Below, in pieces: positions 11,193-27,238 of a DNA stretch of 38,044 nt. The DNA is from Pseudonocardiaceae bacterium (GTDB taxonomy: Bacteria > Actinomycetota > Actinomycetes > Mycobacteriales > Pseudonocardiaceae). Within the stretch, counting starts at the first letter, position 1. Each line of letters begins with the position of its first letter. The stretch covers positions 1 to 38,044 of the forward strand of contig JAICHZ010000003.1 of the NCBI GenBank assembly GCA_025924655.1. Direction: 5' to 3'. The notes under the pieces were generated by a model. That model searched no databases, had not been told where the DNA came from, and saw only the letters and a list, made by a program, of their open reading frames with translations. Position numbers and translations under genes: made by a program.

Positions 11193-11459
11193 ATGCCGAA
11201 GTCGAAGGTCCGCAAGAAGTCGGTCTACACCCCGCCGGCCGACGCGCTCGGCGCGACGAAGGTCCCCGTCGCGGGTCCCTCGCATCCGTTCTACGTCGCC
11301 GTGATGCTGGGATTGATGGTGCTTGGGCTGCTGTGGCTGGTGGTCAACTATCTCGCCATCGACAAGATCCCGCTGCTCAACAGCCTCGGCAACTGGAACT
11401 TCCTGATCGGTTTCACGTTGATGATCACCGGTCTGCTGATGACCATGCGCTGGCGCTGA
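11193..11459 (+). CDS. crgA: Cell division protein CrgA (start at 11193)
   Basis: MPKSKVRKKSVYTPPAD...HPFYVAVMLGLMVLGLLWLVVNYLA...NWNFLIGFTLMITGLLMTMRWR, two TM. Confidence 0.94.
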   Translation: MPKSKVRKKSVYTPPADALGATKVPVAGPSHPFYVAVMLGLMVLGLLWLVVNYLAIDKIPLLNSLGNWNFLIGFTLMITGLLMTMRWR

Positions 11460-11523
11460 ACTACACCAGTGGAATTCATCCCCACTGTGGGCAACTCCTG
11501 TGCACAACTCCGCGGGGGGATCT

Positions 11524-11587
11524 GTCGTGAACTCGACAGGACCGACGTTTTCATCGCGAAAAATGTCGGTACTGTCGAGTTCACGAC
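11524..11587. repeat. Palindromic repeat, copy 1 (64 bp)
   Basis: gtcgtgaactcgacaggaccgacgttttcatcgcgaaaaatgtcggtactgtcgagttcacgac; about 29-bp imperfect arms; between crgA and rhomboid 3' ends. Confidence 0.9.
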
Positions 11588-11595
11588 AGGCGACG

Positions 11596-12354
11596 CTAGT
11601 GGCGGCGCTGGGGGCCGTAGAGCATGGCAGCTGTGAGGGCGGTGCCGAAGGCCAGGCCGCCGAGGTGGCCGAGGATGGAGATGTTCGGCACGACGAAGCT
11701 GATGATCACGTTGAGCACGATGATGGTCAGTGCCGGGCGCGGGGACAGGCGTAACCGCATGAGTACCACAGCCAGGCCGCCCATCAGGCCGAATACCGCA
11801 CCCGACGCGCCCGCGGTGTCGGTCATCGGATTGGCGAACAGGTAGACCGTCAGCGAACCGCCGAGCAGCGATACCAGGTACACCACCAAGAAACGGACCC
11901 GGCCCAGCACCCGCTCAAGATCCCGCCCGATCACCCACAGCGCGATCATGTTGAAGGCCAGGTGCAGCGGCCCGATATGCAGGAAGCCGGAAGTGAGCAG
12001 CTGCCACCAGGCACCCTGCTCGACCGCCGCAGGCTGCAGCGCCCACTGCCCGAACAGCGGCGCTTGGGAGTTGTTGGACAGGCTGCCGGCTTGCACCACG
12101 GTGATGACGAAGACCGCGACGTTAATCGCGATAAGGACCGGAATCACCAGCGAGGAACCAGCCTGTGCCGCCCAGGCTACGGTGCTGGAACCCGGTCGCG
12201 ACCGGGCGTCCGCGGCGACGCAGTCCACGCACTGGGAGCCGATCGAGGCTTCGCGCAGGCAGGCGGGGCAAGCGGGCCGGTCGCAGCGGGTGCACCGCAC
12301 CGCAGTCTCGCGGCCCGGGTGCCGGGCACACACTGGACCGGCCATCGCTGTCAT
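11596..12354 (-). CDS. Rhomboid family intramembrane protease with N-terminal Cys-rich (B-box-like) zinc finger
   Basis: CARHPGRETAVRCTRCDRPACPACLREASIGSQCVDC; GASGAVFGLMGG (catalytic Ser); ISILGHLGGLAFG (catalytic His). Confidence 0.92.
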   Translation of the reverse strand: MTAMAGPVCARHPGRETAVRCTRCDRPACPACLREASIGSQCVDCVAADARSRPGSSTVAWAAQAGSSLVIPVLIAINVAVFVITVVQAGSLSNNSQAPLFGQWALQPAAVEQGAWWQLLTSGFLHIGPLHLAFNMIALWVIGRDLERVLGRVRFLVVYLVSLLGGSLTVYLFANPMTDTAGASGAVFGLMGGLAVVLMRLRLSPRPALTIIVLNVIISFVVPNISILGHLGGLAFGTALTAAMLYGPQRRH

Positions 12355-21691: not shown

Positions 21692-21755
21692 GTCGTGAAC
21701 TCGACACCGCGGACGTTTTCAGGCGCCAAAACGTCGGTATTGTCGAGTTCACGAC
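21692..21755. repeat. Palindromic repeat, copy 2 (64 bp)
   Basis: gtcgtgaactcgacaccgcggacgttttcaggcgccaaaacgtcggtattgtcgagttcacgac; between P450 and DedA. Confidence 0.9.
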
Positions 21756-25391: not shown

Positions 25392-25454
25392 GTCGTGAAC
25401 TCGACGCGGCCGACGTTTGAGTCGAGCGGACGTCGGCCGCGTCGAGGTCACGGC
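25392..25454. repeat. Palindromic repeat, copy 3 (63 bp)
   Basis: gtcgtgaactcgacgcggccgacgtttgagtcgagcggacgtcggccgcgtcgaggtcacggc; overlaps TrmH stop. Confidence 0.88.
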
Positions 25455-26275: not shown

Positions 26276-27238
26276 TTAGGACGCCTTGCGTCCTCCCTTG
26301 GGAGCGGTCCCGGACGCCTCGGCGACGGCGTCGCGCAGCTCATCGCGGGTCATCTTCGAGCGCCCCTCGACGCCGAGGTCGCGGGCCATCTCGGTGAGGT
26401 CTGCCTTGCTGGCCTCACCGAGATCCGGCTCGTCCTGGGTCTCGGATTTACGTCCGTCGCTGCGGGCTGCGGAGACGCTGCGCTGCAACGCCGCCAGCAG
26501 GTCCGACATCTCGGTAGGCGCTGGCGGCTGCGCCTCGGTGACGATCTCGTGGCCCCGGCGCTTGTCATCGATGAGTCGCTCTACCCGTTCGGTGTAGGTG
26601 TCGTGGTAGTCCTGCGGGTTCCAGGGCCCGCTCATCGACTCGATCAGTGCGGTCGCCATCTCCAGCTCCTTACCCCGGGCCGGGGTGCGTTGCGGGAGGG
26701 CGTCCAGCGTCTCGGCCGGGTCGCGGATCTCGTCGGCGAAGAACAGCGTCTGCAGCGCCAGCACGCCGTCGTCAGCGCGGATCGCCGTCAGATACTCCTT
26801 GCCGCGCATGACGAAGGTGGCGATACCGGCGCGGTTGGTCCGCGTCATGGCCTCGAGCAGCAGCGCGTAGGGATGGGCGTACTGCTCGCCGTCGGGGGCG
26901 AGCCAGTAGGTCTTCTGGAAGTACACCGGGTCGATCTCGTCGGCGTCGATGAAGCTGGTGATGTCGATGCTCCGGGACCGCCCGGGGGCGATGTCGTCGA
27001 GCTCCTTCGGTTCGACGATCACGTAGTCGCCGCCACCGACGTCTCGCCCCTTGACGATGTCGGCGTAGTCGACCTCTTTGCCGGTCCGCTCGTTGACCCG
27101 CTGGTAGCGGATGCGGTCGGCGGTGCCGCGCTGGAACTGATGGAATCCGACGGTGTGGTCCTCGGTCGCGCTGTAGAGCCCGACCGGGATGGACACCAGT
27201 CCGAAGTTGATCGAACCTGTCCAGATAGCCCGTGCCAT
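26276..27238 (-). CDS. ku: Non-homologous end joining protein Ku (start at 27238)
   Basis: MARAIWTGSINFGLVSIPVGLYSATEDHTVGFHQFQRGTADRIRYQRVNERTGKEV; KGYEY-like GGGDYVIVEPKELDDIAP. Confidence 0.95.
   Translation of the reverse strand: MARAIWTGSINFGLVSIPVGLYSATEDHTVGFHQFQRGTADRIRYQRVNERTGKEVDYADIVKGRDVGGGDYVIVEPKELDDIAPGRSRSIDITSFIDADEIDPVYFQKTYWLAPDGEQYAHPYALLLEAMTRTNRAGIATFVMRGKEYLTAIRADDGVLALQTLFFADEIRDPAETLDALPQRTPARGKELEMATALIESMSGPWNPQDYHDTYTERVERLIDDKRRGHEIVTEAQPPAPTEMSDLLAALQRSVSAARSDGRKSETQDEPDLGEASKADLTEMARDLGVEGRSKMTRDELRDAVAEASGTAPKGGRKAS

Follow-up and report, generated by a model that had tools for sequence, protein, structure and literature searches.

A dispersed 64/65-bp inverted repeat at gene ends in a soil actinobacterial genus

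Most genomes of a soil actinobacterial genus of the Pseudonocardiaceae, labelled g1 here and probably uncultivated, carry dozens of copies each of an inverted repeat of 64 or 65 bp that is conserved between species. On balance, we lean towards reading these genus-level repeats as bidirectional gene-end elements, which would mark the 3' ends of transcripts. This reading draws on four features taken from sequence comparison: the placement of the copies behind stop codons, the selection that appears to act on them, the symmetry of the two arms, and the equal conservation of both arms in copies that lie between tandem genes.

Anatomy and distribution of the repeat

The window, i.e., the whole 38,044-nucleotide stretch analysed, is contig C3 of a g1 draft genome (G000; 3.74 Mb in 451 contigs). 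As described in the initial annotation, a near-perfect inverted repeat of 64 bp occupies exactly positions 11524–11587 (copy 1; profile match of 68.8 bits), with arms at 11522–11551 and 11560–11589 that are 93% complementary. Copy 1 fills a convergent junction between crgA (11193–11459, plus strand; Pfam PF06781), which has the element downstream of it, and a rhomboid protease gene on the opposite side (11596–12354, minus strand; Pfam PF01694), whose stop codon lies 8 nt from the end of the repeat. Each arm contains a conserved 12-bp core, CGTGAACTCGAC, located at 11526–11537 on the plus strand and at 11574–11585 on the minus strand, both delimited by 14-mer matches, orthologue comparison and a family survey. 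The inner box of each arm (ACSGACRTTT in g1, with GGGGGTT instead in a sister genus) was placed, by comparison of copies of both genera, at 11541–11550 (plus strand) and 11561–11570 (minus strand).

The exact 14-mer of copy 1 is also found where it had been reported, at 21692 and 25392. Copy 2 (21692–21755; supported by the 14-mer, the profile and Pfam matches of its neighbours) follows the stop codon of a minus-strand VTT-domain gene by 8 nt and lies upstream of a cytochrome P450 gene, also on the minus strand, whose predicted start is 114 nt away. Copy 3 (25392–25454; supported by the profile and Pfam) sits at a convergent junction of csbD-like and SpoU methylase genes and overlaps the stop codon of the gene on the minus strand. 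No strand is assigned to any of the three, and the shared orientation once ascribed to them is meaningless for a near-perfect palindrome. When up to three mismatches are allowed, the 14-mer has 12 matches in the window vs 5.2 expected, a number reached in none of 100 shuffles. The copies have folding z-scores between –4.5 and –9.5 on either strand, corresponding to a stable hairpin both ways, and a search of the window against Rfam 15 gave no match above the gathering score. A further weak profile match (E 0.006) at 27027–27072, inside a predicted gene, is probably due to chance. The gap between crgA and the rhomboid gene also holds, at 11480–11515, a DnaA-box-like pair (CCCACTGTGGATAACCCCTGTGGACAA and variants), which is degraded in this genome, whereas the g1 species examined conserve it at the corresponding position (L135, L137, L138, L139, L142, L143 and L145), and which is a possible DnaA-binding site outside oriC.

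Beyond the window, G000 contains 37 exact 14-mer matches (none for the reversed control), and a sequence-only profile recovers about 43 copies in G000 and about 59 in a second g1 genome, G008; the unit is thus dispersed, as had been supposed. Nine of the 11 g1 genomes give 35 to 126 profile hits (both strands counted), and the remaining two, G007 and G010, have nearly no copies. Across the genomes of 84,980 named species, the paired 14-mer occurs in 49 stretches, 48 of them titled as Pseudonocardiales MAG and one as Actinobacteria MAG. The element was not found in the viral contigs, plasmids and phages searched, and a literature search on the core sequence returned unrelated papers only.

The copies share one anatomy, namely two inverted half-sites, each composed of GTCGTGAACTCGAC, three variable bases and ACSGACRTTT, with a short variable centre in between. 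Of 84 copies, 75 measure 64 or 65 bp overall, and nearly every core occurs in an inverted pair. Both sides end in GTCG/CGAC, and the base just outside, read outward, is mostly a purine (56 copies).

Among 392 genomes of the family, a palindrome with the 12-mer core exists in two of 47 genera, g1 and g54. Copies in g54 have the form GTCCGTGAACTCGAC, then three variable bases, (R)YGGGGGTT ... AACCCCC ... GTCGAGTTCACGGAC, and 11 of 13 abut a gene 3' end. Their core-to-core length is exactly 60 bp in all 13 copies examined, a uniformity that the length-tolerant profile used to find them may slightly favour. The sister genus shares the core, the frame and the place but swaps the inner box, which argues for recognition by sequence together with spacing.

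Placement behind stop codons and conservation of the core

Placement was evaluated with a home-made gene caller on the 85 copies of G000 and G008 for which both neighbours were called, and compared with random intergenic placement (2000 draws). A stop codon lies within 30 nt of 51 copies (random mean 8.0, maximum 18), an enrichment that bears out the abutment of gene 3' ends noted initially, and a start codon lies within 30 nt of two (random mean 10.3). Convergent genes flank 32 copies vs 11.5 expected (random maximum 24), and divergent genes flank 12 vs 26.5 expected (random minimum 13). The two genomes are not independent; taken alone, they place 19 of 30 and 32 of 55 copies, respectively, within 30 nt of a stop. 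The other g1 species provide an independent replication of the 3'-end placement, in that a stop lies within 30 nt of 16 of 31 copies and a start within that distance of no copy. The median distance behind the stop codon is 19 nt, and 14 of the 3' sides end exactly on a TGA internal to the arm (GTCGTGA), including those of both genes at two loci (L208 and L164). The element often fills the entire space between two converging genes. Copies between convergent genes appear better preserved (1.2 vs 2.2 arm mismatches), but with a P value of 0.053. With 40–60 copies per genome, the element is missing from most gene ends, and the hairpin signal at gene ends without it is weak.

Conservation was measured on 26 pairs of orthologous copies from G000 and G008. 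In the core (positions 3–14), 2–13% of arms differ per position (mean about 4.6%), and in the inner box mostly 6–17%. The first four bases outside differ in 27–31%, and those farther out (about 20 nt) in about 50%, up to 52%, the distant figures being somewhat inflated because the flanks were aligned without gaps. Between species, the immediate outside flank changes several times as fast as the core does, from which we infer that the core is either under selection or homogenised; selection is favoured, since arms of 14 bp are too short for ordinary recombination.

Pairing of the stem is a different matter. Among 47 distinct copies with perfect arms, covariation shows no excess (9.43 vs 9.40 of 15 inner positions), and the small excess of pairing among 129 copies (69% vs 66% paired) drops to a z of 1.5 once the set from one genome, G003, and near-duplicates are removed. 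Between orthologues, 108 of 124 one-sided changes alter the pairing state. Compensatory changes of the inner positions number four vs 1.3 expected (P = 0.03), and a few copies have the identical rare change in both arms (e.g., L224, with CGTGTACTCGAC on each side); together, these make a weak stem constraint, or an occasional arm-to-arm correction, possible. It appears that the sequence is what is conserved first, and that the hairpin is a consequence of the sequence. In copies between tandem genes, the two arms have 19 and 20 core mismatches, i.e., they are equally conserved. At position 24, one side tends to have G and the opposite side A; this asymmetry was considered as a direction signal and rejected, as it has no relation to the direction of transcription.

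History of the copies and comparison with known repeats

Orthologous copies are present in G008 for 29 of 39 G000 copies. Copy 3 is present also in G005 and G006, in both of which copy 1 is missing or down to possible remnants, and copy 2 seems to have decayed in G005 and is no longer present in G001. The orthologous copies in G008, together with the decay and absence in relatives, suggest that the copies of this species are old and that some are in the process of being lost. No precise empty site was obtained; at the positions of copies 1 and 2, the relatives have either lost the element or retain possible decayed remnants of it. The initial annotation had set a dispersed family against a few undispersed copies at conserved orthologous positions: the copies are neither few nor undispersed, and most of them do hold fixed orthologous positions. 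At the position of copy 3 in G001, the element is absent and an unrelated perfect stem, TAGTCCCACC-GTC-GGTGGGACTA, overlaps the stop codon, pointing to a need for a 3' hairpin there; no replacement hairpin is seen where relatives miss copy 1 or copy 2.

In G003, near-identical copies lie within a repeat of about 290 bp with CTAG at both ends, a MITE-like unit (L035, L044, L057, L079, L082, L087, L088, L094 and L095), an apparent capture of the palindrome by another mobile repeat. In G008, a segment of about 29.4 kb with a large serine recombinase (PF00239 and PF07508) is integrated in the loop of a copy (C31:137957–167476, from L196 3958–3998 to L199 4038–4077), the intact G000 orthologue of which is at C90:4673–4736 (L203); the palindrome may serve this element as a multi-copy attB. 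In G000, an IS30-like element (HTH_38 and rve) is inserted in the loops of two copies, and its end, GGATTCAAGGAGCGCTCGCAACATCC, is found at the same offset in these two different copies (L230 3967 and L233 1702), which suggests that it prefers the palindrome loop as a target.

Like REP and BIME sequences (the GTAG and CGTC superfamilies, associated with RAYT; PMC3733652, PMC2817692), the copies are short multicopy intergenic palindromes, located mostly 3' of genes and between ORFs in convergent or tandem arrangement, and, like REPs (PMC1525189), they are targets of insertion sequences, here the IS30-like and serine-recombinase elements. Unlike REPs, which are tagged hairpins of 20–40 bp, they form one unit of 60–65 bp with two inverted arms, and they number 40–60 copies, often fewer than typical REP families have. 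The REP/RAYT-type origin first suggested did not hold: none of the 11 g1 genomes encodes the RAYT domain Y1_Tnp (PF01797; control genomes being positive), the 56 copies with flanks have no unpaired GTAG or GTGG tag, and recent movement in this species is not evidenced. The rule for CGTC-tagged REPs, i.e., a CGTC tag at one end, a loop of 4–5 nt and a short CCA tail (PMC3733652), does not describe them either: GTCG is preceded by C or T, such that some copies do have CGTC, but have it at both ends, the central unpaired segment is about 8 nt, and there is no CCA tail. The text of that 2013 survey of REPs does not mention Actinobacteria (PMC3733652). MITEs such as ERIC and NEMIS are likewise gene-adjacent inverted repeats that can fold as RNA, of 70–300 bp and with terminal inverted repeats recognised by a transposase (PMC3733652). 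Here, the same 56 copies show no target duplication of 3–9 bp above shuffles, and the half-copies examined led to no parent element. The repeat is probably not an integron attC, judged by the R-box consensus. DNA-uptake sequences, for their part, occur also singly and in large numbers. The terminators that they form as inverted pairs (PMC2267715) resemble the present repeat, as a conserved oligomer in close inverted pairs after stops. Unlike uptake sequences, nearly every core here is paired and the copy number is low, and we rejected this class on these grounds. The repeat appears REP/BIME-like in behaviour yet outside every described REP superfamily, and no described family seems to match it; because it works alike but lacks what defines the described superfamilies, we file it as a variant of the REP/BIME kind.

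Of the alternatives to a gene-end element, the one that survives best, although we consider it unlikely, is a selfish or relic miniature mobile element of REP/MITE-like type, in which two back-to-back terminal inverted repeats, once spread by a transposase that has since been lost, would be tolerated at gene ends as insertion elsewhere harms the host. Multicopy dispersal, sharply bounded identical arms and a fixed length would fit such a relic, as would the weak coupling between arms, the copies with the same rare change on both sides, the CTAG-bounded repeats of G003 and the near-emptiness of G007 and G010. The missing Y1 transposase and target duplications, as well as the many positions shared with G008, speak against it. 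In addition, the arms of fixed copies appear to be kept by selection, whereas a dead insertion would lose them, and the half-copies examined trace back to insertions of the unrelated IS30-like and serine-recombinase elements rather than to the termini of a parent transposon.

Proposed function and its alternatives

For the gene-end element, we infer an effect on transcription or on the RNA. A single copy directly behind a stop codon would mark the 3' end of one or both transcripts and, with no U-tract involved, would limit read-through into the facing gene and/or protect the 3' end of the mRNA. In each arm, the sequence of the 12-bp core would be read, probably by a protein, while either strand could in addition fold into a strong RNA hairpin; the action may be via a protein on the DNA core, via the RNA hairpin, or both. 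Counted against this reading are the absent U-tract, the 12 divergent copies, the majority of gene ends that have no element and show a weak hairpin signal, the lack of replacement hairpins at the lost copies 1 and 2, and the marginal protection of the pairing. A more specific version is tentative and rather improbable: a dedicated host protein would bind the inverted CGTGAACTCGAC cores, with their fixed 60-bp frame and genus-specific inner boxes, as a bidirectional roadblock, giving protein-dependent termination with neither U-tract nor Rho site.

About as doubtful is a binding site for a protein of chromosome organisation or DNA topology (gyrase, a nucleoid protein or a segregation factor). 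As for BIME-2 and gyrase, it would lie at convergent junctions, at which positive supercoils accumulate. Such a site would agree with the conservation of sequence rather than pairing and with the fixed length in both genera. The oriC contig of G008 (parAB, parS and dnaA) carries nine copies vs 2.6 expected (P = 0.001), and five other large contigs of that genome carry 13 vs 23 expected, an origin enrichment that comes from one draft genome and was noticed before being tested. The tight spacing behind stops exceeds what a topology site needs, and no candidate protein was identified. As a separate observation, the whole G008 genome has one exact parS (C26:14066) and one with a mismatch, and its oriC contig (L273, C26:1–20000) is palindrome-dense.

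A canonical intrinsic (Rho-independent) terminator with coincidental sequence sharing is very improbable: the position and the stable hairpin fit, but a T tail is absent from all 172 outward flanks, which rules out the textbook type, the T-run of the copies sits within the stem close to the loop, a terminator scan of the window calls none of copies 1–3, and the core is conserved far beyond the needs of a hairpin. The portable bidirectional terminator of the initial annotation remains the best functional guess, in a form other than this canonical one.

How transcription is ended in actinobacteria in the absence of clear U-tract terminators is a matter of debate. As a gene-end element, the repeat would be a portable stop-codon element that can be tested with reporters and that occurs in two genera with a swapped inner box, and would offer a concrete handle on actinobacterial termination. 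It would also extend the known spread of REP-like repeats to include a lineage without a REP transposase.
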